Part shown: one piece after another, positions 2,927-21,492 of the stretch
Layout: each line of letters opens with the position of its first letter
Numbering within the stretch: the first letter of the stretch is position 1
Source of the DNA: a virus
Virus record (IMG/VR): IMGVR_UViG_3300043429_000394
Coordinates: 1-28,708 of that record
Direction: 5' to 3' (one strand)
Length of the DNA stretch: 28,708 bases
Translations under genes and position numbers: made by a program
Notes under the pieces: model-generated
Seen by the model: only the letters and a program-made list of their open reading frames with translations
Told to the model about the DNA's origin: nothing
The model's database searches: none

Positions 2927-5900
2927 TTCTGCGACATCAGGTTGATCATACGCTGCAGGTCTTGTCGGGCAGTCTCCGGCGCGGACCTCAGCGTTCGATC
3001 CATAGCCGGACGGTCTGCCTCTTTCAGTGCCCGGCGCGAGTTCTTCACGAAGTTGTTGATCTCCAGCCCGGTGCCTCGGGCCCCGCGGTTCCATTCCTCG
3101 ACTTCCTGCTCGATCTCCCTAGCCCGAGCCGTGTCGCCTTCCTGCATGGCACGAATCCACCCAGTCCTATAGGCGGTGACCTGCTCCCGCCGGTAGTCTG
3201 TAATGAGTTTGGCCATCCCGATCATCTCGTACCGTTGCGATGCTACCTTCGGGTAGAAGCCCAGTATTCGGGCTATGATGATGCCGAGGCTCATGTCGGG
3301 CGACACCGTGTAACCGCGGCGATCGACTATCGCGCCGTTCTGCAGATACGTGTAGGCATCAGCGGCAGCCCGTACCATTGTGACGGGGGCCTCTCGTGCC
3401 ACATCCACCGCGTCTACGGTGGCCGTGAACGGGGCGCGGATTGCGTCTTTGGCGAATGTCACAGTGGACCCAATCATGCCAGCCGCTGGGCCGAAGATTT
3501 CCATAGCAGACCGCCACGGGTCTGTTCCAGCAATACCAAGGTTGGTCCCCGGGAGCATATTCCCAAGCGACGTCTTGGCAGCGATGTCGCCGGGTACGAA
3601 CTGGTTCACGAACCCGCCCAAGATTTGCGGCGACATACCGGGGAACACCTCGTCGATCATCATGGCGGCTTCATAGCGCGCGCCTTGCCACCCGGGTATC
3701 TTGAGCAGCTGCGCGATCGTATCGGCAACGTCTTCGAGGTCCTCGGCGAAGGGCAGACCGGTCAGACCTGTAAGTAGGAACAGCGATCCAAGCATGTACG
3801 CCTGACCTTTGCGGTCCATGTTGGCGAGGAGTTGCACGGAGGTGGTGATGAACACCTTGTACATATAGGCAAACGACTGGATGCCCGAGCGCCATGCTGG
3901 CGGGCGGGTCATGACTGCGTAGTCACCGAGCGTGTAGTCCAACGCTTGGAACGCGAACGCTACAGCCTGATCATGGGCCTCGGCATCGGTCCTGCCGGTA
4001 GCGCGTTGTCTTGCGTATTCCAGTCTGTATGCCGCGAGACCGGCTGTCTGGCGGGATGCCCGCTCCGTGACGTTGAAGGTCCACATCCATGCGTCGACGA
4101 ACTTCTGCGTGGCGCCGCGCGTGACGCGCCCGCGTGCTGTCCCGACCATCGAGTTGGTCTGCGCCGGTGTCAACTTACCGTCTAGGATGCCCTCTTTCAG
4201 GAAGCGCGCGTCGTTCGCCGATAGCCCATACTGTTTCTGCAGGGCTTTACTCACTTCGACGTCGGCAAAGAACTCCGCAGTGTCAAACTTCGAGTTGGTT
4301 ATGCTCGGCCCGCCGACATTTGCAGCAGCACGTAGCATTTCCCGGTTGACGTTGCCGAGGCCGAAGCCGCCACCGAACGCGGTCTTGCTGTTGTACGTCG
4401 CTAGGTAAGGTACGACGTTAGTTTGCAGCGCCAGAAAGTTCATGGCCCCGGTGGCCACAGAGCCACCTAGTTGGACAATGGCTGTGATGGCGCGGACCGA
4501 GGATACCCAAGGCTTGGCACCGAAATCAGACTCGTCGATGTTCTTGTTCCCCTCCAAGAAGGTGAGGGTCTTGGCAGCCTCGCCGTAGAGTTGATTGGCC
4601 TTGTTGGCCGGACCGCCCCGGGTCTCTTTTACCATGTAGGCGTAGGCTTCGTACTCACGCCGCGCATCGTCCTTGGCCGCGCGGGATACGGTGGAGTCGG
4701 CAGCCATGCTGTCGGCGCGGGCCTTCAGGGTTTCCAGCCAGTCACGCCCCGTCTGCGGGTCCTTGAGTTCAGCGTTCCACAACTCCCTCGTGGACTTCAT
4801 ACTACGGTCCATGAGTTCAGACAGCCCGACCCGGGTAGCCACTTTGGCGATGGTAGACGCACGACTTTCGATGTGACGCGACACTGCCATGATCGCGTCG
4901 GGGTCAGCGCCGGGTGTGAAGGCGCGCATAAGACGGTTACGCGCCGAACTGTTCTGCTGCGTCAGAGCCACGATGAGTTGCTCCAACTTCTGCGGTGTCA
5001 GGTTGATGTCGAACTGCCGGATACCGCGTAGGAACTCGTTGAGGTTGAGCTCGGGCGGAGCGGCTACGGTCTCCAGTGCGGTCTCGGGTACAGCCCGCAA
5101 AGTGGCGTTGCCCAGAACGTATTCTTGCTTGGCCTCGCTGTAGTACATGACCTCGAATGGCTGTTTCCCGAACGCCGAGTTGGCTTTGTCGGACATCTCG
5201 ACCGCTTCCGACAGCGAGTCGAACTGGGAGTACACCAGTTGCTCCCTGTATGCGTCTTTGACCTGCACCGGTTTGCCATCGACTATAACCTCGACACGCA
5301 TCTGGAAACGACCCTCACGCAGGATGGGCACATAACCTGTGAACAGCGTGCGCTTGGTGTAACTGTCTGCGTCTTGGTTGGCGATCTCCGCAGTAACAAT
5401 CTGCTTGACCTTGTCCTGCACAGCGAACTTGTCGTTGCTCAAGTCAAGCCGTTTCCGGAACGCTTTGAGTTTGGCGATGAGGTCGTCGGCAAGTTGGGCT
5501 TCCATAGCCGCAGGGATTGACCTGCGGACCTTTGCGGTCCCGCCGTCTTTTGCCTCCAGCAGGAAGTTGCGCTCGGTGGTGAGGAGCGTTCGCAGTGCGT
5601 CGAAGCGGTCTTCAGTCTCCCCGATAAGTGCAAAGTTAGCAGCACGCAGGATGTCGTTCGCGTAAGTTTGGTAGTCGGAGTCCAACTCCGCGCCACCATT
5701 TTTGCCGATGGTAACGTTGGCGGTGTACATGGAAGAGTATGTTTCGGCCAGCTTGACCAGTGCCGCCCGCTCGTCGGCATTAAGTTCTCGGTCCGGTACG
5801 GACTGCGCCAGCTTGCGGAACATGAGGTCCCGATTGTCAATCAGACTTTGGTAGTGCGCCTTGAGGAGTTCGAGTTCGACACCATCCATAGCGGCGCGAA

Positions 5901-8900
5901 TGGATTTGTAGCTACGCCACTCGATGCTTGTCTCGGTTAGTCCTTTGATGCCCGGGAACCGCTCCGTCTTCCTTACAGTCTTGCCACCCTCCTCGAACTC
6001 GACATTGTAGTCGAAGCCATCGCGCATATCCGCAAGCGAACGAGTACCGTTACTCTGGAGCCGCGCGATCTCTTCCGTGTCGGGGACGAGACGGTTACCG
6101 TCAATACGGAACAGCGGCACACGACCAAGGTCGCCGCCTACTTTGGCATAGTCCGCAGCCCCACGCCGCAGGCCAGCGATGAGCATACTACTGACGGTAC
6201 TGCGCTGGGCATTGGAGATACCGCCGAGGGTACCGTACACGGCGCGGCTAAGTGCGACGCGCATGAGTTCGTCGTACTTCCGTTTTGTCGACATCGAGAT
6301 GTCGCGCGCAAGTTTCAACTTCTCCTCCACGGCCATGGAGCCGGGGTTAATGCGCGAACGGAAGTAAGACAGACTGAGGAACTGCGCCTTGAAGCGGTCG
6401 AAGCCGTCGATTGTGTTGATGCCGCGCGCCTTTAGGAAGTCCCAAGCCTCTGTAAACGATGTCGGGTTCGCGCCCAACGTGTCACGCAAGAGGGCCACTT
6501 CGATGTTGACGTCCCGCAGAGATTTACCCGTGGAGAACCGGCCGGTGTCGCCAGAGGTTTCCACATTATGGAGACGTCGGCCCACGGCCTCGGCATCGAA
6601 GGTCACACCCTTACCATCACGCGCGTACCGGCGGGCTTGGTCTAGGAGGTAGCGCACCATCTCGTCGCCAGTGGTGATGCCCAGCTTGTTGAGCGCACCC
6701 TTGATGGCGTTCCAGATGCGGGCGACGATGCTCGTCTCCAGCGCAGCGGCGTAGTCCGACAAGTATTCTTCCACGGCCTCGGCCCGGGACATGCCCGGCC
6801 GGACCGCCATAGCGGCGTCGGCTGCACGCTGGACGCGACTGTCACCTGTGTACAACGCCTCCATCAGAGCGTCGAACTTCGGACCCGGCATGATGCCACG
6901 CAGGCCGTAGTGGCCCAGCGTCTCGTGGGCAAGGACGAAGCGAAGCTGTTGTTCCGTCCCGATCCGGTCGGAGAAGATGATGACTTGCCCATCACCAAAG
7001 GAGTATCCCATGGCGGCTGCAGTATCGAAGTCACCCTGCGGGCGGGCTGCCACTGCCCGGGCGTAAAGCTGCGGGTTCTTAGCCTTGAGGTCAGCTTGGT
7101 TGCGAACGACGGTGATCTTGGGTGCCCGCGCCAGCTTTGCTGCGAAGTTGCGCACCAGAAGCTGCACGCGACCGGGTGCAACCGGGGTGACCGGCCTGCC
7201 GTCAAGGTCCACAGCACCGTCGAGGGTGTTCCATGTGGCCAGAGAGAAGCCGCCGGGGGCACCGACGATCTGCCGCACCCCATCCACTCGCGCGAAGTTA
7301 GGATCACCGTTGGCCTTGGCGAAGGTCAGCAGGCCACGATCTCCGAAGCGAGCACCCGGGTCTTCCTTGCGCACCGCAGCAACCAGACGACGGAACTGAT
7401 CTTGCCACGTGCGGGTGACATCGCCGGGGGCAGCGTTGAAGTCTTCGATCATAAGCGTCAGCTGCGCAGTGGCAGTGTTGACGTCGGTCTTGGCGTTCAG
7501 GTCACCGGCCGCAACCTCGGGGCCCAGTTCAGCGAGGTAGTCCTTCACCCGGGCCCGGAGTTCAGGTGTCATGGATGGGTCGATCAGGGCGTCCTGCAAC
7601 CCACTGATCGCAGCGCGGCGGTCGAGCTTATCCGTGGAGGACTCAAGCACCGTGATGAAGTCGTTGATGTCGGCCTCAAGTTCTTCGACCACGCTCAGTT
7701 TGGTCGGCTCAGCCGCCGCTTCCTGCTCAGTATCTACGACGGCATCGGAGAGTTGACCCTGCGAGGCGAGTTCCGCCACGCGCGCGGCCGCATCGTCGGC
7801 CTTGATCCCTTCTCCGATAACGTCGCCAGTCTTGAGGAAAGTCCACGAACCGGCGAACTTGTCGCCGGTGTGCTTGATGCGAATGACGCGCCCATCTGAC
7901 AGCGTGACCACCCTGTGCGGCTCCGCACCGCGAGGCGACCGCTTGGTCGACTCGACAGTGACTGCCTCCGCCCGGGGGCGGGGCTTGCCCTTCTGGACCA
8001 CGACTTCCTTCGGTGCCTGCGCCTTGGGCTCAGCAGCTTTGCGCTGGACCTTGGCTTTGCCAGTGGGCTTGGGCGGCGTCGGCTCCGGCGGTGTGATCTC
8101 GGGTTCGGGCGCAGCCTGCAGGATCGTGGGTACATCCACGAGAGGGGCTGCCTTGCCCACCGGGCGGCGGTTGCGCAGCTTCTGGTACAACGCCTGATCA
8201 GCGGTGCCCCGCTGGACGGCAGCGACCCACTCGCGCTGCGCCTTGGGCGCAAGGTCACGGAGCGTGACACCACTCTGCTTGGCGCCATCCTGCGGGCGGA
8301 ACTGCTCCCACACCGTGTCGGCGTCGACGTAGGCTTTCTGCTCAGCCGTCAGCTGGTCATAGGCTGCCTGCTGCTCCGCGCTGTACATCGTGGCGCGCTG
8401 GGCTTCCCGCTGTGCGTAGGCTTCTTCGACCTGTGTGGCACGCTGCCGTGCCACCTCTTGTGCGGCCCGGGTCGCAGCCTCCTGCGCAGTGGTTTCTGCC
8501 ATCCGCTCTGCTTCGGCCTGCTGCCTTGCAGCCATAGCCGCGCGCAACCGGTCGGCCATAGCCCCCTGCGGGGGAGCGGGCAGGATGCCGGGACGCGGCG
8601 CAGCACCAACACGAAGTTGTGCGCCCGGAGTAACGGGAGCAGCGGCAGGAGCCGCGGCGGGGGCAGCGCCGGTGGGAGCGACACCTTCCGGGCCAGCAGT
8701 GAAGTCCGCCGCCCCAGCCCCGGGCGGGGGCAGTTGCGGTGCAGCAGCCGGAGCGCCAAGGGTGCGCAGGCGGGCAGCCTGCGGTGCAGCAGCCATGGTC
8801 TCCGGGGGCAGGACCTCACCCTCAAGCGTGACCGCACGCTCACCGCTCGGCACAGTGATGTTGCCAGCGGCACGATCTTCGGGGCGCAGGCCCCGAGTTG

Positions 8901-10326
8901 CACCCCGCATAAGCCCAACTTGCTGGAGTGTCAGCGGGCGGTTGGGATCAATTACCTGCTCGGGGCCCATCGGGGCCACAGGACGCGCACCGATAGTCTC
9001 AGCACCCGGGATGTACGGCAACGCAAGTGGTCCAGTTGCGGCTGGGACTTCAGGCTGCGCAGCTGAGGCTTCAGGCTCAACCCCTTGCTGGGTCAGGTCG
9101 ACCGGCTTGTCAGCCGGGAGTTCTTGCGGGCCGGGCGTGGCGCGTGCGCTGACCACACCACCGACACCACCACCAAGGATGGCACCCGCACCCATAGAGA
9201 CGAGGATGTCCTCGCCGTATTTCTCCGCGATCATCGGCGCGAGTAGCTTGAGATCGTTGACCGCCAGCGTGCTCCGCACTTCCGGGTCGAAGACCACGGA
9301 CTCAAGCAGCGTCTGGGTACCTTCCGTCAGGGCTTCAGTGAACCCGATGCGACCAGCGCCAATGGCTGCGTTCTTCAGTGCACCACGAGCGACCTGCCCA
9401 CCAACCTCGCCTGCCAGTCGGCGGAAGGCAGTGGAGAAGATCATCCCCGGGCCGAACGTATCCAGAAGCGTGTTGGCCACTGCACCGCCGACGATCTCGG
9501 TCTTAACCTTCGGGTCGGTTAGGTCGAAGCCGTTGCGCTCCGCCGCGTCGTAGAACGAGGACAGGTGCATGGGGAAGCTGGCACCAGTTGCACCAGCAGT
9601 AGCCCCGGCCGTAGCCATGGCAGCACCCGCACCCACAGCACGAAGCCCCGCACCGACAAGACCACCGGTCCCGATGATGGACACCAGAGTGGGGCCACTC
9701 TGGATGGAGGCGTCGACGACGCGCTCCCACATGGTGCTGTTCTCGGCGATCAGCGCCGACCGCAACTGTTCGTTCTCGGTCTGGCCAAAGGCTTCCTGCG
9801 CGAAGCCACGAATGGCGGGGCCAACCTCAGTTGCACCGGCCAGTTCAAGCCCAGCCCCCACGCCACCGATAAGCCCCTCGGCCGCCTGCCGAACACCCAG
9901 CCCCAGCAATTCACCAGTGGTCCGGCGCTCACCAAACGACTGCAGGTACCGCCCGTAGGACTCGGCCGTCAACGGCACGCCACCCGGCGGGGGCGGCGGC
10001 GCTTCTGCAAGAGGCGCTGCAAACGCAGACGCCGCATCGTCCCGGTTGAACAACCGACCACCGGAATAGAACTGGTCAGTCGCGGGGTAATAATACTGCT
10101 GCGCAGTCGTTGCAGGCGGGGCCGACAGGGCTTGTAGTGCACGCCTTGCAGTACCACCGGGCACCGCCCGTTCCCCTTGCACCGCAGTATCCGCGCGGTT
10201 GGGGGCAAGGTTACCAAGCCCGATGGAGTTAGACGGTGCGCCAGCGGCAATGCCGACAGGAGCCCGCAACCCGGCGTTCATGGAGTCGAACAGCGGGTTA
10301 GTGAAGGAGAGTCCGCGATCTGCCAT
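2923..10326 (-). CDS. giant polyvalent internal/ejection protein with zincin-like motif
   Basis: This 2467-aa product takes a quarter of the window and is the last gene of the late operon. Residues about 125-390 contain several Gly/Ala-rich hydrophobic stretches (near 150, 212-248 and 371-389) that could insert in membranes. Residues about 400-800 are Pro/Ala-rich, with an Ala/Gln/Glu/Arg-rich coiled coil near 589-680 and a Lys-rich linker near 752-790. LAHETLGHYGLRG (H1134, E1135, H1139) is a zinc-metallopeptidase-like motif of the kind found in phage polyvalent proteins. The C-terminal part (about 1950-2467) has a helical, partly hydrophobic region and an ILGFYPK block that resembles large-polyvalent-protein-associated (LPD38-like) ends. 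By size and place it corresponds to the internal proteins that podoviruses inject with their DNA. Peptidoglycan or membrane attack is inference. I saw no lysozyme or transglycosylase motif, and it does not look like an N4-type virion RNA polymerase. Confidence 0.8.
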   Translation of the reverse strand: MADRGLSFTNPLFDSMNAGLRAPVGIAAGAPSNSIGLGNLAPNRADTAVQGERAVPGGTARRALQALSAPPATTAQQYYYPATDQFYSGGRLFNRDDAASAFAAPLAEAPPPPPGGVPLTAESYGRYLQSFGERRTTGELLGLGVRQAAEGLIGGVGAGLELAGATEVGPAIRGFAQEAFGQTENEQLRSALIAENSTMWERVVDASIQSGPTLVSIIGTGGLVGAGLRAVGAGAAMATAGATAGATGASFPMHLSSFYDAAERNGFDLTDPKVKTEIVGGAVANTLLDTFGPGMIFSTAFRRLAGEVGGQVARGALKNAAIGAGRIGFTEALTEGTQTLLESVVFDPEVRSTLAVNDLKLLAPMIAEKYGEDILVSMGAGAILGGGVGGVVSARATPGPQELPADKPVDLTQQGVEPEASAAQPEVPAATGPLALPYIPGAETIGARPVAPMGPEQVIDPNRPLTLQQVGLMRGATRGLRPEDRAAGNITVPSGERAVTLEGEVLPPETMAAAPQAARLRTLGAPAAAPQLPPPGAGAADFTAGPEGVAPTGAAPAAAPAAAPVTPGAQLRVGAAPRPGILPAPPQGAMADRLRAAMAARQQAEAERMAETTAQEAATRAAQEVARQRATQVEEAYAQREAQRATMYSAEQQAAYDQLTAEQKAYVDADTVWEQFRPQDGAKQSGVTLRDLAPKAQREWVAAVQRGTADQALYQKLRNRRPVGKAAPLVDVPTILQAAPEPEITPPEPTPPKPTGKAKVQRKAAEPKAQAPKEVVVQKGKPRPRAEAVTVESTKRSPRGAEPHRVVTLSDGRVIRIKHTGDKFAGSWTFLKTGDVIGEGIKADDAAARVAELASQGQLSDAVVDTEQEAAAEPTKLSVVEELEADINDFITVLESSTDKLDRRAAISGLQDALIDPSMTPELRARVKDYLAELGPEVAAGDLNAKTDVNTATAQLTLMIEDFNAAPGDVTRTWQDQFRRLVAAVRKEDPGARFGDRGLLTFAKANGDPNFARVDGVRQIVGAPGGFSLATWNTLDGAVDLDGRPVTPVAPGRVQLLVRNFAAKLARAPKITVVRNQADLKAKNPQLYARAVAARPQGDFDTAAAMGYSFGDGQVIIFSDRIGTEQQLRFVLAHETLGHYGLRGIMPGPKFDALMEALYTGDSRVQRAADAAMAVRPGMSRAEAVEEYLSDYAAALETSIVARIWNAIKGALNKLGITTGDEMVRYLLDQARRYARDGKGVTFDAEAVGRRLHNVETSGDTGRFSTGKSLRDVNIEVALLRDTLGANPTSFTEAWDFLKARGINTIDGFDRFKAQFLSLSYFRSRINPGSMAVEEKLKLARDISMSTKRKYDELMRVALSRAVYGTLGGISNAQRSTVSSMLIAGLRRGAADYAKVGGDLGRVPLFRIDGNRLVPDTEEIARLQSNGTRSLADMRDGFDYNVEFEEGGKTVRKTERFPGIKGLTETSIEWRSYKSIRAAMDGVELELLKAHYQSLIDNRDLMFRKLAQSVPDRELNADERAALVKLAETYSSMYTANVTIGKNGGAELDSDYQTYANDILRAANFALIGETEDRFDALRTLLTTERNFLLEAKDGGTAKVRRSIPAAMEAQLADDLIAKLKAFRKRLDLSNDKFAVQDKVKQIVTAEIANQDADSYTKRTLFTGYVPILREGRFQMRVEVIVDGKPVQVKDAYREQLVYSQFDSLSEAVEMSDKANSAFGKQPFEVMYYSEAKQEYVLGNATLRAVPETALETVAAPPELNLNEFLRGIRQFDINLTPQKLEQLIVALTQQNSSARNRLMRAFTPGADPDAIMAVSRHIESRASTIAKVATRVGLSELMDRSMKSTRELWNAELKDPQTGRDWLETLKARADSMAADSTVSRAAKDDARREYEAYAYMVKETRGGPANKANQLYGEAAKTLTFLEGNKNIDESDFGAKPWVSSVRAITAIVQLGGSVATGAMNFLALQTNVVPYLATYNSKTAFGGGFGLGNVNREMLRAAANVGGPSITNSKFDTAEFFADVEVSKALQKQYGLSANDARFLKEGILDGKLTPAQTNSMVGTARGRVTRGATQKFVDAWMWTFNVTERASRQTAGLAAYRLEYARQRATGRTDAEAHDQAVAFAFQALDYTLGDYAVMTRPPAWRSGIQSFAYMYKVFITTSVQLLANMDRKGQAYMLGSLFLLTGLTGLPFAEDLEDVADTIAQLLKIPGWQGARYEAAMMIDEVFPGMSPQILGGFVNQFVPGDIAAKTSLGNMLPGTNLGIAGTDPWRSAMEIFGPAAGMIGSTVTFAKDAIRAPFTATVDAVDVAREAPVTMVRAAADAYTYLQNGAIVDRRGYTVSPDMSLGIIIARILGFYPKVASQRYEMIGMAKLITDYRREQVTAYRTGWIRAMQEGDTARAREIEQEVEEWNRGARGTGLEINNFVKNSRRALKEADRPAMDRTLRSAPETARQDLQRMINLMSQN

Positions 10327-14680: not shown

Positions 14681-17121
14681 CAGGACCCTTTCAGCGAAGT
14701 GGGTGTCTCACCAAGGTGGACAGCGCGGACGCGGACAGTACCGCTAATCTCGACCTCGTAGGTGTCAGTCTTGTATCCGGCAGGCAGACGGAACACGTCG
14801 CTATCGGCACGCGTGGTCGTCAGGACCAATGAGCGGTTGGCGTACAATTTGAAAGTAACCGGCTCGACCACGTCCCACGTAACGTCGGCCGTAATCCACG
14901 TGGAGTCCCATTCACTCCACACCGGAGACACAGTCACACCGGTGTAGTCAGCAACCACGCGCGCTGCGCCCATATTAAACGGCTCTTGCGACACGAAGAC
15001 CTTGGACTTCCACGTGTAGTCCGAGTTGGGCTGCGCCGGGTCATCCCATAGGACAATATCGCCATCGGTGCCGGTCACGTAGTAAAGCGACCCGGTCAGC
15101 GGATCGAACCATGTAGCCGTGAAGGTGATATTGTAGGTGATGAAGTCGCCCGGATTCTGACCGTCTTGACTGCGGCGGTAGAAGAATGACCCGGTGCTGT
15201 GTGAGCCAAAGTAAAGGCTGTCATAGAACACAGCGGTGATAGTAGACGGATCAAGGGCGGCGTTCCACGTGTCTGGACTATGCGCCGGGGCCGTAACAAT
15301 CTGCACCCCGCCGGTGAAAGAGGCCAAGGCCAGCCCCTCATGGGTGGAATACATAACACCCACATCGGTCTGGACGATGCTGCGCTTGCTGAGGCACGGA
15401 TAGTTAGTGGAGTACCGGCTGACCGAGAGCACTGCGGGGTCAGACCCCGAGATGACGTAAGGGTACCCTTCAGTCATGACCAGCAGGTCGCTGCCCAGCG
15501 CCACCAGCCCGACGATGTTGTATTCCAACGAAATCTTGTACTTCTCCGGCCACGCATGGAACCTATTGGGTTCTGTGAAGTAGACGTCGTTGCCCGTGAA
15601 ACCAACCATCAGGTTGTTCTGGATAACCGTCAGGCCCTGCAGGTCCGCGGGCGGTGCGTCGAACTCGCTGGAGTCCAGTATGGTGGTCAGGCTGCGGTAG
15701 TTGAAGTCGTCGGTGAAGTTGTAGGACCCATCACCCCAATACCGTGCGGCATCCGTCGGGGGGTTTTCCGCCACGTCGTAGTAGACCGTGCCAGTGGCAG
15801 CGGTCGTAGCCGTATCAGCGCCTGCCTGCGCATAGGTTATAGTGAACTGATCTGGGATAGTGGCCACCACCCCGCCCGTGATGTCGAAACCGGCCACGCT
15901 ACAGCCCGAGAGTTTGAACCGGTCGTCCTTAATGAACTTGTGCTGTTCAGAGAACTTGAGTGTCACAACCCCCGAGGTACGGCTTACAGAGGCAATGCCC
16001 TGCGGGAACCACAGGGTAGCCAGCCGGAAGTAATCAGCCTCCGCCGCGTCCGCAGTGGTAGCTAGGGTACGATAAAGCCTGATGCCACGGATGAAGTTGT
16101 CGCCCGCCGGGCGGGCAGTGGGCAGACCAGAGATCGTGACGATCTGTCCTTCTTTGATGAAGATAGCACTCGACGGTTCGGACCCGATCGACTCCTCGTC
16201 CCACGGGGTGTACCACGTGTAGAGGTAGGTGCGTGCCTGCACCAACCCACCAAGATCAACCTTGCCTTCGGAACTGGTAGTGGTAGCCACCTGCGCCCCG
16301 GGGGAGAAGTACGTGATCGTCGTCGGGTTGATGACCGTCACCGTCGTAGTGATGTTGAGATCGCGAATGTCCCAACGGCAGTTGCTTGAAGCGATCGTAC
16401 CCGAGACCGTGTCAGTCACGGTGAAGGTGTTGGTTCCGGTAACGGTCACAGTGTAAGAGTTTGTGGTCGCACCACCAGACGTGAACTCGATGTAGATACG
16501 GGTACCTGTTACCAGACCGTGGTTGTTAATCGTCACCGTGATGGTATTCAGGGCCCGAGTATAGGTACCCGTACGGTAGGAAAAACCGGAGATGGTGGCG
16601 AGTGCGCCGTCTTTGAGATTGTGCGCCGTACTTGTCGTAAGCGTGACGTTGCCACCGCCGTCGCGGGCGAAGGAGGCCGACGTCAAGGACGAGAACGTGG
16701 TGGGCGTAGCGATCGGCTGCGCGGTCGGCAGCGGCAGCCCTAGATTGTAGTACCCACCGGCGGACGGATACGGCGCTGCACCAGAAGTGGCCATCGCGTA
16801 GGTGCTAACCTTGGGCGCACCGTCGCCCGTGTAGTAGAACCGTTGTTCGCCCAACTCGTCTGCGGCAGGGGTGGCGATGTCGATCTCATTGGCCCACGTC
16901 AGCCACTTGCGTTCGGAAGTCACCGGATCGCGCAGCGCGTAGAGTGTTCGGATCGTGCCTGTGCGACTCGCCGCAGCGGCCACGACAGGCGTCGGGGTAG
17001 GAATAAGATCGCCGGAGTATAGTTTAACGCCCTGCGCAGTCTGCGCAGCGGTGCCCGGAAGTAGTTCGGGTGCCACACGTGGGAGCGTGCCCCTAAACTC
17101 GGCGATCTTAGTCGTGGTCAC
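14680..17121 (-). CDS. tail nozzle / tubular protein B-like tail protein (813 aa)
   Basis: The start chosen is GTG at 17121, which forms a GTGA overlap with the stop of the 33-aa gene; an upstream in-frame ATG at 17163 would run through that gene. The opening KIAEFRGTLPRVAPELLP and the aromatic, beta-rich body are typical of large podovirus tail-tube or nozzle proteins, comparable in role to T7 gp12 or P22 gp10. Segments such as QGLTVIQNNLMVGFTGNDVY and VALGSDLLVMTEGYPYVISG look like beta-propeller blades. Three shorter modules built around an H-x-x-x-x-G/D pattern lie at H167, H201 and H394. The protein probably forms the distal tail tube below the adaptors. It is separated from the adaptor genes by the fibre and lysis genes. 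Confidence 0.75.
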   Translation of the reverse strand: MTTTKIAEFRGTLPRVAPELLPGTAAQTAQGVKLYSGDLIPTPTPVVAAAASRTGTIRTLYALRDPVTSERKWLTWANEIDIATPAADELGEQRFYYTGDGAPKVSTYAMATSGAAPYPSAGGYYNLGLPLPTAQPIATPTTFSSLTSASFARDGGGNVTLTTSTAHNLKDGALATISGFSYRTGTYTRALNTITVTINNHGLVTGTRIYIEFTSGGATTNSYTVTVTGTNTFTVTDTVSGTIASSNCRWDIRDLNITTTVTVINPTTITYFSPGAQVATTTSSEGKVDLGGLVQARTYLYTWYTPWDEESIGSEPSSAIFIKEGQIVTISGLPTARPAGDNFIRGIRLYRTLATTADAAEADYFRLATLWFPQGIASVSRTSGVVTLKFSEQHKFIKDDRFKLSGCSVAGFDITGGVVATIPDQFTITYAQAGADTATTAATGTVYYDVAENPPTDAARYWGDGSYNFTDDFNYRSLTTILDSSEFDAPPADLQGLTVIQNNLMVGFTGNDVYFTEPNRFHAWPEKYKISLEYNIVGLVALGSDLLVMTEGYPYVISGSDPAVLSVSRYSTNYPCLSKRSIVQTDVGVMYSTHEGLALASFTGGVQIVTAPAHSPDTWNAALDPSTITAVFYDSLYFGSHSTGSFFYRRSQDGQNPGDFITYNITFTATWFDPLTGSLYYVTGTDGDIVLWDDPAQPNSDYTWKSKVFVSQEPFNMGAARVVADYTGVTVSPVWSEWDSTWITADVTWDVVEPVTFKLYANRSLVLTTTRADSDVFRLPAGYKTDTYEVEISGTVRVRAVHLGETPTSLKGS

Positions 17122-17219
17122 TTCTTGGTGGCCTTCTTCATGCACTTGCCCATGGCAGCGCATTTCTTAGGTGCAGGGCACCCCGGGCAGGGGGTGAACT
17201 TCGGAGCCGGTTTCTTCAT
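17118..17219 (-). CDS. 33-aa Cys-rich basic peptide
   Basis: A very short frame runs from ATG at 17219 (ATGA overlap with the o-spanin stop) to TGA at 17118 (GTGA overlap with the next start). It encodes a Lys-rich peptide with four cysteines (C11, C14, C20, C26) in the order CPGCPAPKKC...GKC. Perfect coupling on both sides and the spaced cysteines argue that it is translated. Four cysteines could bind zinc. I recall similar small Cys/Lys peptides in environmental phages but cannot name a family. Its function is unknown. Confidence 0.62.
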   Translation of the reverse strand: MKKPAPKFTPCPGCPAPKKCAAMGKCMKKATKK

Positions 17220-17419
17220 TTGCAGAACTCCATCCGCTTCTCGTTGTGCGACGTTACACCCGCCAACAGCGAGGGATCATTCGCTGCCAACCAGTCTACC
17301 ACGTTGTCGCTGCCGTAGTATAGCGTTTCAGTCCAGTCGCACTCACTTGTCGTTGACGCCACGCACCCAGCGACGGCTACGAGACTTGAGAGACTCGCTA
17401 TCCAGAGCTTCGACCTCAT
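17216..17419 (-). CDS. outer-membrane lipoprotein spanin (o-spanin, Rz1-like)
   Basis: The 67-aa product starts at an ATG preceded by AGGAGATCGAGA. The N-terminus is a lipoprotein signal: a basic start, a hydrophobic stretch (LWIASLSSLVAVAG) and lipobox VAG-C19. The mature part is about 49 residues, including SHNEKRMEFC at the end. The gene begins inside the i-spanin gene in another frame and runs past its end, the usual nested Rz/Rz1 layout. The product would sit in the outer membrane and pair with the i-spanin to fuse inner and outer membranes in the last step of lysis. A longer frame with an ATG at 17446 exists, but it lacks the good ribosome-binding site and spoils the signal peptide. Confidence 0.75.
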   Translation of the reverse strand: MRSKLWIASLSSLVAVAGCVASTTSECDWTETLYYGSDNVVDWLAANDPSLLAGVTSHNEKRMEFCK

Positions 17420-17582
17420 TCTCGATCTCCTCTGCGCGTCGAACAACCCTCAGGGACCGCTCGACGGTGGCCAGTTTGATGTCAGCCTGCGCCGATCTTC
17501 TGCCACCAAACCAGCTTGTTGCCAGCGAGAGAGCATGAAGAACCGGCCGCAGGAGGGCGGAGAAAAACGCCTGCCAGATCAT
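17343..17582 (-). CDS. inner-membrane spanin (i-spanin, Rz-like)
   Basis: This 79-aa protein starts at ATG 17582, overlapping the holin stop as ATGA. Residues about 3-25 are hydrophobic and would anchor it in the inner membrane (FFSALLRPVLHALSLATSWF). Residues about 34-66 are charged and alpha-helical with heptad spacing (LRVVRRAEEIENEVEALDSE). This anchor plus periplasmic coiled coil is the i-spanin plan. The identity rests on architecture and on the o-spanin gene that overlaps its 3' end by 77 bases. A longer in-frame start at 17612 would overlap the holin gene more deeply and is less likely. Confidence 0.7.
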   Translation of the reverse strand: MIWQAFFSALLRPVLHALSLATSWFGGRRSAQADIKLATVERSLRVVRRAEEIENEVEALDSESLKSRSRRWVRGVNDK

Positions 17583-17749
17583 TCTTTGGCGCGCTTGGAG
17601 TAGATCGACCATAGCGCGGCAGCCAGCGTAGCTGCAGCGCCGCCGACGGTCGCAACGGTTTCGGCGTCAGTAACGCCCTGACCCACAAAGTACCCGCCGA
17701 GGGCGGCAACGATGGCGCGAACGACGCCTGCGATCTGATCACCAGTCAT
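17579..17749 (-). CDS. holin (Pam3-gp28-like)
   Basis: A 56-aa membrane protein starts at ATG 17749 behind a clear AGGAG site. The sequence begins MTGDQIAGVVRAIVAALGGY and ends with LWSIYSKRAKE. There are two hydrophobic segments (about 7-24 and 32-50) joined by a short turn with TDAET, and a basic tail. This matches small two-helix holins; I associate the wording with the Pam3-gp28 holin family. It would permeabilise the inner membrane and release the endolysin at the lysis time. Its ribosome-binding site directly abuts the stop of the endolysin C-terminal remnant, which suggests that the two genes were once adjacent. Confidence 0.8.
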   Translation of the reverse strand: MTGDQIAGVVRAIVAALGGYFVGQGVTDAETVATVGGAAATLAAALWSIYSKRAKE

Positions 17750-17758
17750 GGCAGTCTC

Positions 17759-17848
17759 CTATTTTGCCGGATAGACCCGGCGGTCCAGTTCCCAGTGCGG
17801 TGGACGGTTTGAGTTTGCATTTTCCACCTCACGCAATATGATGGCTGC
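17759..17848 (-). pseudogene. orphan 3' end of an M15 endolysin gene (remnant)
   Basis: The longest open stretch ending at TAG (17761-17759) begins after an in-frame TGA and has no ATG or GTG start. Its last residues read NRPPHWELDRRVYPAK. They align with the end of the intact endolysin, KDGPHWELSWKAYPA: PHWEL and YPA are identical at the same spacing, and the shared His is the last zinc ligand of M15 peptidases. The TAG runs into the AGGAG of the holin. This is best read as the former endolysin C-terminus, cut off by the HNH gene insertion. The DNA match to the intact copy is only partial, so it is not a fresh target-site duplication. Confidence 0.6.
17815..17842 (+). promoter_or_regulatory. 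candidate sigma70-type promoter for the HNH gene
   Basis: TTGCAT (17815-17820) lies 16 bases before TATGAT (17837-17842). The -10 box matches the consensus at five of six positions and the -35 box at three of six. The gene start is 24 bases further on, with AGGAG between (17851-17855). An HNH gene running against the late operon would need such a promoter. Confidence 0.35.
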
Positions 17849-17865
17849 TCAGGAGTAGCGCCAAC

Positions 17866-18405
17866 ATGACCCAGATTACGCGAATTTGCTTTCGTTGCAA
17901 AACGGAAAAGCCAGCGACTCTTGAGTTCTTCTACAGAGACTCGGCAAGACCGCTAGGGGTATCTTATGAGTGCAAAACATGCCTATCCATCAGGAAAAAG
18001 GGAAGAGATCGCCGCAAGGAGCGATGGTCAAACATGACCGTAGACCAGCGGGAAAAGAAAAAAGCACTGGCGCAGAAATACGCGAAAACGAACAGGGGGA
18101 GGGCCATTTACCTTCGGAAAGCATACCAAAGAATAGACGCCTGCGATCTGTCTACGGATGAAGTCATGGCGCTAATCGCTCAACCGTGCGTTCACTGTGG
18201 AACAACGGATAATCCTCGCGGGCTTGACAGGATAGACAACAAGCTCCCCCACATTAAGGGGAACGTTGCACCTGCGTGTGCGCCGTGCAACTTCGCGCGC
18301 GGAGATAGGTTTTCATTTGCAGAGATGCAGAAAATTGGCGCGGTCATCCGAGAGATCATGCAGGATAGGCTTTCCAACTCAACTCCCAATGCGGACCGTC
18401 CTTGA
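17866..18405 (+). CDS. HNH endonuclease (homing-type, free-standing)
   Basis: This 179-aa protein has an N-terminal zinc-ribbon-like module (C8-x2-C11 and C36-x2-C39), a basic helical linker, and a C-terminal HNH fold (C108-x2-C111, then GLDRIDN at 119-125, N133, and C138-x2-C141-N142). Such enzymes cut related phage genomes that lack the gene and spread by repair. It is on the opposite strand from the lysis genes around it. It is visibly richer in A and T than its neighbours, starts behind AGGAG, and its last 50 bases overlap the 3' end of the endolysin gene in antisense. All this marks it as an invader between endolysin and holin. Confidence 0.85.
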   Translation: MTQITRICFRCKTEKPATLEFFYRDSARPLGVSYECKTCLSIRKKGRDRRKERWSNMTVDQREKKKALAQKYAKTNRGRAIYLRKAYQRIDACDLSTDEVMALIAQPCVHCGTTDNPRGLDRIDNKLPHIKGNVAPACAPCNFARGDRFSFAEMQKIGAVIREIMQDRLSNSTPNADRP

Positions 18406-18769
18406 ACCGCCAATCACCTCCCCATACGATGGCGACGTCTTCCTTGTCTGCGGCAGCCTTAATCACGACAGCCAGCTTGTGATACAGCGGCCACGCATAC
18501 ATCTCTTCCGACTCGACCTTGCCGTCCTTGTCGATGTCCACATAAGGCACGAGGTCCACGGCATGGCCCGTCAGGTGGCGGCTGTTCAGGGTCTTCGATG
18601 CGCCGATTCGGACAAGCTCCCGCTGCCGCTCAATGGTGCGTAGGCCCTCGGTGATGATGAACGGGAACGGGGCGTCCTGCAGTGCACGGTCCATGACTCG
18701 GCGGAGCTCGGGGCGAACGCCTTGCAGGTTCTTTAGGCTCCGCTGGTCCCACTGCCGCATGTCAGCCAC
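18356..18769 (-). CDS. endolysin, M15 family L-Ala-D-Glu / D-Ala-D-Ala type peptidase
   Basis: This 137-aa peptidase would cleave peptide stems of peptidoglycan. The zinc site is visible: SRHLTGHAVD supplies H65 and D72, and GPHWEL supplies H127. WGGDW (116-120) and the TEGLRT segment with R44 also fit the M15 (VanY/T5-endolysin) fold. Between D72 and the last helix lies DIDKDGKVESEE (78-89), which has the spacing of an EF-hand calcium loop. No signal peptide is present, so it relies on the holin. The start is GTG 18769 (8-base overlap with the previous gene) or ATG 18760; neither has a strong ribosome-binding site. The last 50 bases overlap the HNH gene on the other strand. Confidence 0.9.
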   Translation of the reverse strand: MADMRQWDQRSLKNLQGVRPELRRVMDRALQDAPFPFIITEGLRTIERQRELVRIGASKTLNSRHLTGHAVDLVPYVDIDKDGKVESEEMYAWPLYHKLAVVIKAAADKEDVAIVWGGDWRFKDGPHWELSWKAYPA

Positions 18770-19055
18770 CAGTGGTCTTGATGATGTAGGTCATGCCCGC
18801 GCCAACGATGAGCCAGAAGCCCTTGTCGATTATGTGGTAGACGACGCCACGCTTGGTAGAGGTCTTCTCGACTTCAGCAAGGCGCTCGTCGATTTCCGAC
18901 TGCGCCTCGTCGTACCGATCCATGCGCTTAAACAGCGTCACCATCCGCTCCTCAATCCGCGCCATCGCAGTCACGACTTTAGTCAACTCGTCGATCTTGT
19001 CTCCGAGTTTGTCGAGGTTCTTTTCGATGCGGTCGAAACGCTGGTCGTCGGCCAC
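18762..19055 (-). CDS. coiled-coil membrane protein, possible holin partner/antiholin (97 aa)
   Basis: The start is GTG at 19055 behind CAGGAG with a six-base spacer, one base after the previous stop. Residues about 3-60 are a long charged heptad helix (RFDRIEKNLDKLGDKIDELT, then RIEERMVTLFKRMDRYDEAQ). Residues about 78-93 are a single hydrophobic segment (FWLIVGAGMTYII) near the C-terminus. This plan resembles XhlA-like lysis accessory proteins. With the endolysin next in the operon, it may modulate the holin or act as a second one. An upstream in-frame ATG at 19217 would lie inside the 145-aa gene and is rejected. Confidence 0.6.
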   Translation of the reverse strand: MADDQRFDRIEKNLDKLGDKIDELTKVVTAMARIEERMVTLFKRMDRYDEAQSEIDERLAEVEKTSTKRGVVYHIIDKGFWLIVGAGMTYIIKTTGG

Positions 19056-19056
19056 G

Positions 19057-19494
19057 TTAAACTCCTGCGTAGGTCTGGAAGAAGGCGTCGATTTCGGTGG
19101 CGGTCTTGCCTGCGGCGGTGCCCATGGCGGCCACCAGCGGGTCGCTGCGGAGAACTTCCGACGGGCGCAGGGCGCGGACCTTAGCGGGGAACTGCTGCTC
19201 CACAGGGAGGCCGTCAATGACAGTCAGAATCGCGAACGGCAGTGTTCCGGCCAGCCACGCGTCCGCCTCGGCCTCAGTTATCCACTGTTCGGTCACGAGA
19301 CCGATCAGAAGCTGGGCGAAGGAGATGGATTGCGGGACGGGCGGGGGCGGAGGTGCGACCGCAACCCAATCCAGACCATCCCAGTCATAAAACTGCCCCG
19401 GCTTTTGCGGGACGACGGTGGCCCCGCTTGGAGTTGGAACTGGCTCAATAGCCTCAAAGTAGTTGCCGTTCGCGTCGATGAAGAAACTATGCAT
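19057..19494 (-). CDS. tail-fibre-region protein of unknown function (145 aa)
   Basis: The ATG overlaps the preceding stop as TGATG. The N-terminus resembles tail-fibre accessory or assembly proteins (FFIDANGNYFEAI...), followed by a proline run (PPPPPVP). A helical domain contains LVTEQWITEAEADAWLAGTL and EQQFPAKVRALRPS. I recognise this second block as recurring in phage genomes downstream of fibre genes, but I know of no assigned function. It could be a fibre chaperone or a small tail component. It is the last gene before the lysis cassette. Confidence 0.6.
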   Translation of the reverse strand: MHSFFIDANGNYFEAIEPVPTPSGATVVPQKPGQFYDWDGLDWVAVAPPPPPVPQSISFAQLLIGLVTEQWITEAEADAWLAGTLPFAILTVIDGLPVEQQFPAKVRALRPSEVLRSDPLVAAMGTAAGKTATEIDAFFQTYAGV

Positions 19495-19922
19495 CAGCGA
19501 AGCTCCGAAAATATCTGCGGGGCGGACACCGTCACCCTATAGTAATAGTTCGGCGGGATGATCGCGGATGAGTGTCCATAGTCGGCGGCGTCGTTGGCAT
19601 CGACCGTAATCCAAGTAACGTTATCGACTGACACCTGAACAGCTGAGCCTGAACCACCCGTCTTAACGGCGATCTGGATCGGCTTTCCCGTCGTGTTTTG
19701 GTAGCTGACACCTGCAGTCCTCGTTACGGTTTGCCATGTCTGGCCAAGCCCAACGGCTTCTGTGGCAATTGCCTGCGCCACCCGCAGCGGCGTCATCTGG
19801 GTCGTGTTGTCGGTGCCAGCCTCGGCCTGCGCCTGAGAGGACAGCGCCACCGTGACGCCATTCACTGTTGCGGTGTTGCCGCCAGCACCATCGACAAATG
19901 CGTTTGCTTTGACCGTGCTCAT
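19494..19922 (-). CDS. small tail-fibre-like protein (142 aa)
   Basis: The ATG at 19922 follows a GAGGG site. Residues about 30-55 read SSQAQAEAGTDNTTQMTPLR followed by VAQAI, a motif typical of phage tail-fibre shafts. The rest is beta-rich with many Thr, Val and Ser, including a segment like SVDNVTWITVDANDAADYGH. It probably forms a short trimeric fibre or a fibre tip. It lies in a row of fibre-related genes and its stop overlaps the next start (TGATG). Confidence 0.6.
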   Translation of the reverse strand: MSTVKANAFVDGAGGNTATVNGVTVALSSQAQAEAGTDNTTQMTPLRVAQAIATEAVGLGQTWQTVTRTAGVSYQNTTGKPIQIAVKTGGSGSAVQVSVDNVTWITVDANDAADYGHSSAIIPPNYYYRVTVSAPQIFSELR

Positions 19923-19924
19923 GA

Positions 19925-20560
19925 TCAGCCCTCGTACATGACTGTGAAGGAACCGCTGTCGTAAGTGTCGATGCCGCCAACGGTGGTAAACCTAAAACGA
20001 TCAAGAGCACCAGACAGCGTCACTCGTCCAGTTCCAACCGGGCCACGAATGCCCGTATTGTCAGACAGAATACTGTCGATGAACCAAGTATTCCCAGAGG
20101 CGTTGATCAACTTGATTGTGCCGTCATAGACATATGTAGCATTGCTGTCGTTATCGACGGTGAACCCGTTTGTGGACACACTACCGGCCCCTGTCCCCGC
20201 ATTACGACAGTTAAGGCAAGAGGAAACGTATCCTGTGGTTTGCACAGAACCCGAGCCGATCTGTAGCAGCTTGTTTGACGTTCCGTTAGTGGAAGCAGAT
20301 GACACAAATATAGTCACACGCTTGACCCACGACGGTATACCCGTGAAGTCGGTTGTCGCCCCGGTGATGCTACCCCCAGACACCAACGTCAACGCGCCGC
20401 CGTTGATCGTCTTGTTCGTCAGCGTCTGCGTGGCATCGGTACCGACCAGCGTAGTGGTGGCATCCGGCAGGCTGATCGTGCGGTTCGTGTTCGTGTTCGG
20501 GCTTTCGACGATGACCGTCCCGGTGCCGGAAGCATTGCCGCGTATGGTTAGGTTCGACAT
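19925..20560 (-). CDS. tail fibre protein with C-terminal head domain (211 aa)
   Basis: The start is ATG at 20560, overlapping the stop of the 310-aa fibre gene as TGATG; a longer in-frame start at 20743 would run deep into that gene. The front carries fibre-shaft motifs (TRTISLPDATTTLVG-like, then DATQTLTNKTINGG). The second half, starting GIPSWVKRVTIFVSSASTNG and ending DRFRFTTVGGIDTYDSGSFT, resembles a beta-sandwich domain I have often seen at the end of phage tail fibres. It probably contacts the host surface. Three cysteines in the middle (CLNCRN and nearby) are unusual for a fibre head. Confidence 0.68.
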   Translation of the reverse strand: MSNLTIRGNASGTGTVIVESPNTNTNRTISLPDATTTLVGTDATQTLTNKTINGGALTLVSGGSITGATTDFTGIPSWVKRVTIFVSSASTNGTSNKLLQIGSGSVQTTGYVSSCLNCRNAGTGAGSVSTNGFTVDNDSNATYVYDGTIKLINASGNTWFIDSILSDNTGIRGPVGTGRVTLSGALDRFRFTTVGGIDTYDSGSFTVMYEG

Positions 20561-21492
20561 CAGACCACCGTCCAGACTTCGCCGTCGCCCACCGTGACGG
20601 TGACGCCGGAATTGATTGTGATAGGCCCTGCGCTCATCGCGTTGGTGCCGTTGGTGATGGTATAGTTTGTCGTGACGGTCTGGCCGTTTTCGTAAAACAC
20701 GCGATCCGGGCCACCGCCCGTGGCACCACCCACGCCGCCCCACGCGGAGCCGTTGTAGCCCTCAAACACATTGAGTGTGCTGTTGAAGCGGAAATATCCA
20801 GCAAGCGGCGAACCGTCGCGCTCGGCCGTCGTCCCCGCCGGAAGCACCGCCGCCCCAGTTGCGGACGTGCGCCCAGTCTTGGCGTCAAGCTGCGTCTGGA
20901 TCGCGCTCGTCACGCCGTCGACATACCCGAGCTCGGTCGCTGTCAGCGTGCCGGGAATACCATCTAACACGTTCAATTCAGCCGTGGTCGCCGTCACGCC
21001 GTCTAGGATGTTCAGTTCAGCCGTGGTCGCCGTCACGCCGTCTAGGATGTTCAGTTCAGCAGTGGAGAGCGTGGCTCCGTCTAGGATGTTCAGTTCGGCC
21101 GTGCTCAGCAACGCCCCGTCTAGGATGTTGATCTCCGCCGCGGAAGCAGTGACGCTGAACTGCGCCAAGTCCACCGTGTCGGCAGCATCTTGTGCGGCGT
21201 CCAGAACGCTGGCAGCAGTAACCCGCATCTCGATGGTAGACCCAGCAGCAAAGGTCCGTGCCGTCGTACCCTCGGCGCCGCGTGTTGCAGTCAGCGTGTC
21301 CGTCGCCCGGGCAGTGACCCGCACGATCTCGTAGTTGCCAGCCGCGTCCTCGATGGTGGCATAGAAGTACTCACCCGCGCCAAGCGCCGGGAACCGCGCG
21401 CCGTGGCCGACGGGCAGGAGGATGGTCGTGCTACCAGACAACACCTCCGTGCGGAGCGATGACCGGACGTTGTTGCTTAGTTTGACTACCAT
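20560..21492 (-). CDS. tail fibre protein with 13-residue shaft repeats (310 aa)
   Basis: The ATG follows GTGAGGATAAG. The first 110 residues form a beta-rich attachment domain (STTILLPVGHGARFPALGAG; TARATDTLTATRGAEGTTAR). Residues about 119-184 are five tandem 13-residue units around AELNILDG, a fibre-shaft repeat that would wind into a trimeric stalk. The C-terminal third (AGYFRFNSTLNVFEGYNGSA) is a small domain commonly seen near fibre ends. It heads the fibre gene group and is followed by a second fibre gene in TGATG overlap, so the two proteins may form one composite appendage. Confidence 0.72.
   Translation of the reverse strand: MVVKLSNNVRSSLRTEVLSGSTTILLPVGHGARFPALGAGEYFYATIEDAAGNYEIVRVTARATDTLTATRGAEGTTARTFAAGSTIEMRVTAASVLDAAQDAADTVDLAQFSVTASAAEINILDGALLSTAELNILDGATLSTAELNILDGVTATTAELNILDGVTATTAELNVLDGIPGTLTATELGYVDGVTSAIQTQLDAKTGRTSATGAAVLPAGTTAERDGSPLAGYFRFNSTLNVFEGYNGSAWGGVGGATGGGPDRVFYENGQTVTTNYTITNGTNAMSAGPITINSGVTVTVGDGEVWTVV
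20942..21136. repeat. five 39-bp tandem repeats in the fibre gene
   Basis: Five adjoining 39-base units start at 20942, 20981, 21020, 21059 and 21098. The units at 20981 and 21020 are identical at every base; the others differ mainly in the part encoding the variable residues. Each unit keeps a core encoding AELNILDG. The repeats are in frame, so unit gain or loss would change the fibre stalk length without breaking the gene. Confidence 0.85.

Follow-up and report, generated by a model that had tools for sequence, protein, structure and literature searches.

A nuclease gene inside a duplicated phage endolysin end: a probable homing element that brings a replacement end for the gene it invades

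In the virus record analysed here, a nuclease gene is situated within the 3' end of an endolysin gene, and the coding sequence for the endolysin C-terminus is present on both sides of it. We consider it probable that this arrangement represents a selfish homing element which consists of a nuclease gene and a differently coded 3' end of the invaded gene; cleavage, homing, immunity and the activity of the hybrid endolysin are inferred. Empty and filled sites, replacement of the endolysin tail and recurrence of such elements at one place can be regarded as established from comparison of sequences, and the interpretation put forward in the original prediction, made without database searches, is supported at this level. 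Throughout the text, the window denotes the whole analysed stretch, a virus record of 28,708 nt (IMG/VR IMGVR_UViG_3300043429_000394).

Organisation of the interrupted lysis cassette

The lysis cassette is encoded on the minus strand, in the order 97-aa gene, M15 endolysin, holin-like gene and possible spanin genes. Its features are as follows:

18762-19055, minus strand: upstream lysis-cassette gene, 97 aa (called hemolysin in PHROGs, phrog_1193, E 3e-6)
18356-18769, minus strand: full open reading frame of the hybrid M15 endolysin, ending with KDGPHWELSWKAYPA and a stop
18410-18769, minus strand: native body of the M15 (L-Ala-D-Glu peptidase type) endolysin, codons 1-120, up to ...VWGGDW (96.1% match to the uninterrupted locus L002 from 18410)
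18356-18409, minus strand: replacement endolysin 3' end borne by the element, RFKDGPHWELSWKAYPA and a stop, with a D-G-P-H motif (outside the BLAST match to L002)
17802-18409: inserted element, 608 nt in place of 17 nt of the uninterrupted gene (joints from the L002 comparison)
17866-18405, plus strand: HNH / endonuclease VII-like nuclease gene, 179 aa (open reading frame, antisense to the lysis operon)
18356-18405: stretch of 50 nt coding on both strands, for the endolysin tail (minus) and the nuclease C-terminus (plus)
17814-17842, plus strand: promoter-like site TTTGCA-17-TATGAT before the nuclease gene (weak, 1 found against 0.5 expected from shuffles)
17759-17797, minus strand: orphaned remnant of the native endolysin 3' end, HWELDRRVYPAK and a stop
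17579-17749, minus strand: holin-like gene, 56 aa, next in the lysis cassette (best match phrog_37382, of unknown function, E 0.002)
17343-17612, minus strand: possible Rz-like spanin gene (phrog_1026, E 0.0084, weak)

The claim that the endolysin C-terminus occurs twice around the HNH gene holds at these coordinates, and the likeness of the two ends is beyond chance, since the local alignment score is 52 and none of 200 shuffled tails scored above 37. The nuclease frame (540 nt) fills most of the 608-nt insert, its stop is antisense to endolysin Phe-Lys codons, and the predicted antisense overlap with the endolysin 3' end (18356-18405) is exactly 50 nt long. The endolysin frame meets a stop within the insert; the arrangement is therefore not intein-like, as an intein would share its frame with the host coding sequence on either side. 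Downstream, the remnant frame (...NANSNRPPHWELDRRVYPAK and a stop) terminates at a TAG (17761-17759) which, as had been noticed, merges with the SD sequence of the holin-like gene (TAGGAGACTGCCATG). This frame had also been described as start-less, which is correct insofar as it contains no ATG, but TTG and GTG codons are present in frame. The nuclease gene is preceded by an SD-like AGGAG (17851-17855), and a promoter of its own is only weakly indicated. The identity of the 56-aa gene as a holin is plausible but weakly supported.

Several other features of the window were recorded. A terminator-like hairpin (18243-18264, minus strand) lies in the insert on the lysis-operon strand and, if real, could reduce expression of the holin from the endolysin transcript; seven terminator-like sites were counted on both strands of the region, against 1.9 expected. 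An exact 15-nt direct repeat, GACGCCTGCGATCTG, is found at 17723-17737 (antisense in the holin-like gene) and 18136-18150 (in the nuclease gene), with a roughly estimated chance of about 3 in 10,000 for one such stretch; it is reported for the window, not for L006 or L004. Outside the lysis region, a 310-aa open reading frame (20560-21492), perhaps of a tail fibre protein, has repeats of the type TAELNILDGVT and an internally repeated stretch at 20971-21129 with 85% identical copies (seen in comparison with contig L102, see below). A very long open reading frame of 2467 aa occupies 2923-10326 on the minus strand.

The endolysin matched phrog_465 (endolysin, E 5.4e-52), PF13539 (E 4.3e-10) and ChiX (PDB 5opz, E 8.3e-31), and the hybrid protein, complete up to YPA, aligned with ChiX to its last residue. 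According to the accessible part of one source, the zinc ligands and catalytic Asp of EndoT5 are H66, D73, H133 and D130, and the last zinc-ligand His of M15_C peptidases lies three residues after the catalytic Asp, as in the pairs D130/H133 of EndoT5 and D114/H117 of EndoRB49 (PMC10487532). The hybrid endolysin contains SRHLTGHAVD and DGPH and thus, by motif and spacing, the residues of an M15 L-Ala-D-Glu peptidase; the Asp-His spacing in D-G-P-H equals that of EndoT5 and EndoRB49. A phmmer alignment to EndoT5 (2mxz) paired the endolysin His with H121 and not with H133, which we take as a misalignment beyond the reliable part of the alignment; the equivalence to H133 rests on the D-x-x-H spacing and the ChiX alignment. 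Restoration of the zinc-ligand His, as originally proposed, is in agreement with this. Judged from these motifs, the stretch targeted in the endolysin gene contains the codons for D-G-P-H-W, with the catalytic Asp and the final zinc-ligand His.

The closest PHROG of the window nuclease was phrog_1035 (endonuclease VII, E 1.8e-20). No Pfam match was obtained at E up to 0.1, a PDB sequence search returned only a weak match to PacI (E 0.67), and structure prediction was poor (mean pLDDT 54).

Empty and filled sites in related phages

Endolysin relatives were collected from IMG/VR (the best 80 of 381 were kept), and the best 20 of those 80, 74-99% identical, were inspected singly. Fifteen of these 20 loci are nuclease-free at the site and run straight into the holin-like gene, which agrees with the proposal that endolysin and holin were once adjacent. 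The native end reads exactly DRRVYPAK in 12 of the 15, the very outcome that the original prediction had named as its check; as L011-L015 and L017 seem to be copies of one sequence, fewer than 12 of these loci are independent. The remaining uninterrupted ends are DRRVYPAKQE (L008), DRRVYPVK (L019) and NRRSYPA (L016). A nuclease is present at the site in four of the 20 (L001, L004, L006 and L010). The last locus, L020, is without such a nuclease, ends with QLSWKAYPK and continues into different downstream DNA; no second tail was found for it within 1,300 nt downstream. Its native end has 14 nt (TGGAAGGCATATCC) in common with the L004/L010 tail, a link to the origin of the new tail that is suggestive only. 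The pattern that would have refuted the prediction, i.e. a SWKAYPA end without a nuclease and with the remnant still there, was met in none of the best 20 loci.

In the comparison with L002, the nearest uninterrupted locus, the match of the window stops at 18410 (96.1%) and resumes at 17801 (94.8%), positions which correspond in BLAST to 4360 and 4378 of L002; 608 nt thus replace 17 nt, the codons between GGDW and PHWEL. As both flanks match the uninterrupted locus, it can be inferred that the SWKAYPA end came with the element (its donor was not identified), in line with the proposed entry of an HNH element together with a replacement C-terminus, and that the remnant is the native endolysin end. 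The DNA of the remnant equals the native end of L003 and is one base off that of L002. The presence or absence of the nuclease gene at its own target site varies among close relatives. As a separate observation, the interrupted L001/L102 and the uninterrupted L003 contigs bear the same sample number (3300043425), and the L003 endolysin is 90% identical to that of the window; interrupted and uninterrupted alleles may co-occur in this sample.

Altogether, three elements with two dissimilar nucleases occupy one place, namely those of the window, of L006 (antisense) and of L004/L010 (sense), and the inserts are known only in four contigs and the window record. L001 represents the phage of the window; its contig, L102 (14,760 nt), has the window-type arrangement with 99.93% identity over 12.4 kb. 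The antisense nuclease of L006 sits at the same site and is 75% identical in protein to that of the window, the replacement end reads PHWELDRKVYPA followed by a stop, and the net insert length, taken from alignment offsets, is the same as in the window (591 nt); the antisense overlap of 50 nt is common to the window, L001 and L006. The nuclease of L004/L010 is encoded in sense, with an ATG that shares nucleotides with the new endolysin stop (ATGA) and a frame that continues into the remnant (...KKEHWELDRRVYPAK and a stop). Between the window and L004-type nucleases, BLASTP detected only a 29-residue match (E 5e-4), while both types match phrog_1035. The right joint falls immediately 5' of the CAY-TGG (His-Trp) codons in the window and in all four contigs with inserts, and each of them retains an intact remnant CAYTGGGAACTGGACCGCCGGGTCTATCCGGCAAAAT. 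The position of the left joint varies: the window has it behind GGDW, L006 near the KDG codons and L004, by comparison with L005, behind HWQLD. Each of the three element types opens with an endolysin tail that can be read to a stop. As read from these sequences, the endolysin frame extends into the tail that the element carries and terminates in it, and the old tail persists ahead of the holin-like gene.

The statement that the two copies differ in DNA was confirmed as well: the window replacement and its own remnant are identical at 23 of 36 nt over 12 codons from Pro. The corresponding values are 27 of 36 nt for L006 and 19 of 33 nt for L004, and among the same degenerate residues different codons are used at 4/7 (window), 5/10 (L006) and 4/5 (L004) positions. 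Despite the differing DNA, the protein is kept in the tails (PHWEL or PHWQL ... YP). Replacement of the end is clearest in the window and L006. The DNA of L004 is identical to that of the uninterrupted L005 through ...HWQLD and only WKAYP with its stop differs, so the supplied end there may comprise just five codons; the remnants of L004 and L010 resemble L009, not L005. Codons also differ among natural uninterrupted ends of different lineages. Different codons therefore do not prove immunity, and the coding difference of the new ends may reflect lineage or a foreign donor, not selected immunity.

As for mobility, 2 differences separate L004 from L010 across the 564-nt block (4358-4921) of tail, nuclease and remnant. 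The left flank (4250-4357, 108 nt) contains 19 differences and the right flank (4922-4939) 11 differences and one indel. This might indicate transfer of the whole unit between lineages, which is suggestive but not conclusive: the two contigs show full identity over 5101-5600, too, with unrelated sequence in other parts, and since the genomes are mosaic in many places, a sharp common block is not unique to homing. In a tree of the endolysin 5' part (15 rows; the near copies L001, L012-L015 and L017 were left out), the insert label needs at least four gains or losses, and shuffled labels need 3.7 changes on average, i.e. the insert is no more clustered than chance. Both patchy gain and patchy loss of the insert are allowed by the tree. 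Moreover, L106 (contig 3300043450_000149) contains at 2677-3081 a divergent M15 endolysin with the window's type of end and a holin-like gene, free of a nuclease. Compared with L003, its endolysin body is 57% identical (206/360 columns, 2661-3020), and identity reaches 85-100% from the His-Trp codons on. From these values, a recombination joint near the same codons is possible; the shift may only mirror protein conservation, because a relative, L220, has a similar end.

Finally, we surveyed how widespread such duplications are. Gene-end duplication was found at 0/200 shuffles in 4/4 endolysin-linked nuclease loci and in 0/29 other nuclease loci (lowest 4/200 shuffles). The 29 loci consist of 16 (out of 18) IMG/VR loci with distantly related homologues of the L004 nuclease and of regions from 5/61 and 8/143 phage records, and they include probable copies with identical scores (e.g. 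L085-L089). A smaller locus set gave the same outcome. An earlier six-frame test was insensitive, finding the L006 pair and missing those of the window and L004, and was dropped. Among M15 endolysins, a second tail at 0/100 shuffles was detected in 6/170 rows, which represent the four known contigs; the 170 rows (the best 80 of 381, the best 80 of 428, and 11 more) count some contigs twice, and 161 of them have at least 600 nt downstream. A search for further IMG/VR relatives of the window nuclease found only the two known contigs. The nuclease profile found no such nuclease in L021-L080, and in L139-L228 only the two already known contigs matched. Among genome contigs, four endolysin relatives were found, and no second tail was noticed by eye in the first 700 nt downstream in the two closest (L124 and L125). 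Of 1,240 phage records with an M15 relative, one region was inspected for neighbouring genes; it has an endolysin followed by a holin and no annotated nuclease. Two kinds of candidates were rejected: the second tail of L189 (1/100 shuffles, without a nuclease of the profile) was read as chance, and weak nuclease-like open reading frames passing a crude motif filter in L019, L020, L025, L032, L039, L047, L058 and L059 were not confirmed by the nuclease profile.

Proposed mechanism and competing explanations

According to the model that we favour, the nuclease would cut or nick the uninterrupted endolysin gene of a co-infecting relative at the DGPHW codons, and repair of the break from the element-bearing copy would result in copying of the element into the gene. 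Because the element supplies the missing end, the invaded endolysin gene would stay functional and lysis would survive the insertion without splicing; splitting of the site and the different coding of the supplied end would make the element-bearing gene immune. As a further inference, the 50 nt used on opposite strands in the antisense form would couple the two ends, so that losing that of the nuclease entails losing that of the lysis enzyme. A broader proposal, namely that phages host a natural home-and-rescue class whose nucleases cut active-site codons of an essential gene and bring a recoded end for it, in which dissimilar nucleases have converged at one endolysin site and the antisense form locks nuclease and rescue tail against loss, is tentative, and we hold it with slightly less than even confidence.

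The insert might have arrived passively, by illegitimate recombination that brought a nuclease gene together with the endolysin end of a relative, with no active homing involved. Activity data are lacking, phage genomes are mosaic, and L106 provides a nuclease-free recombinant joint at the same codons, all of which is compatible with such an origin; nevertheless we find it unlikely, as a target site common to three elements with two dissimilar nuclease types and a whole unit common to L004 and L010 within diverged flanks argue against it. A chimeric contig or other assembly artefact could be suspected because the interrupted loci come from metagenomic virus contigs only. The recurrence of the arrangement in L102 argues against misassembly, and with other elements in three more contigs this suspicion is hardly credible.

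Phage group I introns often carry HNH open reading frames, and a self-splicing intron on the minus strand with the nuclease frame inside it, in antisense or in sense, has to be weighed too. Its 5' exon would end with ...KDG and its 3' exon would start with PHWELDRRVYPAK; by inspection, ...RFKDG joined to PHWELDRRVYPAK makes a good protein, and the endolysin-tail-like start of the intron would then be secondary or give alternative ends. Such a start, a readable tail with a stop in all three element types, is not needed by an intron, however, and with 540 of 608 nt taken by the nuclease frame little room is left for a normal core. Rfam searches of the window (17100-19500) and of the L004 and L006 element stretches were negative at E up to 5, as were those at gathering score in L004, L006 and L010; only chance-level matches to unrelated RNAs were returned, and no group I or II catalytic core was found. 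An intron, ranked behind an insertion from the beginning, therefore appears very improbable. Phage genes split around homing endonucleases are known from nrdA and topoisomerase, and by analogy with nrdA/mobE the remnant could be the working end, with two separate peptides that reassemble. This can scarcely be maintained, since the upstream endolysin is already complete to YPA, aligned to the last residue of ChiX, and the remnant encodes just a short peptide without an ATG.

Under the favoured model, homing with a supplied gene end, the elements suggest one source of endolysin tail diversity. Annotators should be aware that a nuclease next to a gene can both replace and duplicate the end of that gene. 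With occupied and empty alleles, two nuclease types and a short target at hand, avoidance of self-cutting and spread are directly testable.

Relation to known systems

Homing nucleases in essential genes usually need an intron, an intein or an intergenic gap, and supplying the gene end would be a third solution for phage nucleases in such genes. In the open-licence literature we met no phage case of such gene-end supply, only cases from fungal mitochondria. The prophage e14 and phage 21 integrate in icd and restore the 3' end of this gene, so there, too, the incoming DNA restores an end; they use an integrase and att sites, in contrast to the homing-type nuclease here.

The closest parallels are mobile endonuclease ORFs (mORFs) of fungal mitochondria, which form hybrid genes in atp6 of Allomyces macrogynus and in atp6, atp9, cox2 and nad3 of Glomus sp.; in Glomus atp6, DNA identity between the two ends is 63.5% and protein identity 91% (PMC3630166, accessible portion). 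As described there, the endonuclease ORF has entered an essential gene close to its 3' end, the gene is restored by a foreign C-terminus that differs in coding but is conserved in protein, and the native C-terminus is left downstream and resembles the end found in ORF-less relatives, all as in the phage elements. The fungal mORFs encode LAGLIDADG or GIY-YIG enzymes and are co-transcribed with the mitochondrial gene (PMC3630166, same portion), whereas the phage elements encode HNH/endonuclease VII-like enzymes in lysis genes of dsDNA phages, one type being antisense with 50 nt of double coding and the other having its start at ATGA and its in-frame end inside the remnant. Given the different nuclease families, the phage elements work like mORFs without being members by descent, and the likeness is, by this analogy, one of convergent design, not of membership. 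Duplicated gene ends (cob, atp6) beside endonuclease ORFs are also described in mitochondria of Endoconidiophora resinifera, there with GIY-YIG and LAGLIDADG enzymes and decayed ORFs, and without a worked-out mechanism (PMC6279837, in the excerpts available).

Among phage nucleases, the free-standing seg/mob enzymes of T4 similarly lie beside or within a conserved gene without need of an intron and target functionally critical codons; a supplied replacement end is not mentioned in the accessible text of the source (PMC2988022). HNH endonucleases of lactococcal Skunavirus have preferred sites, with distinct HNHs at the same location as observed here, and cause marker exclusion; in the available part of that report, insertion is given relative to core genes and tail replacement is not mentioned (PMC12724721). 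F-CphI of the DHHRN family is a phage homing endonuclease which has, like the nucleases here, CX2C pairs and an endonuclease VII-type core, and the first His of its DHDH centre is conserved in all members, as far as the source was accessible (PMC6083498). In GLDRIDN of the window and L006 nucleases, Arg stands in place of the invariant first His, and the DHDH criterion of this family is not met by these two.

In its design, the phage arrangement comes close to the home-and-rescue gene drives of engineers. In HomeR, as outlined in the accessible part of its description, a homing nuclease system likewise sits at the 3' end of the coding sequence of an essential gene and is accompanied by a recoded rescue (PMC7968924). 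HomeR is engineered, based on Cas9 and works in Drosophila, whereas the phage elements are natural and their homing is inferred.
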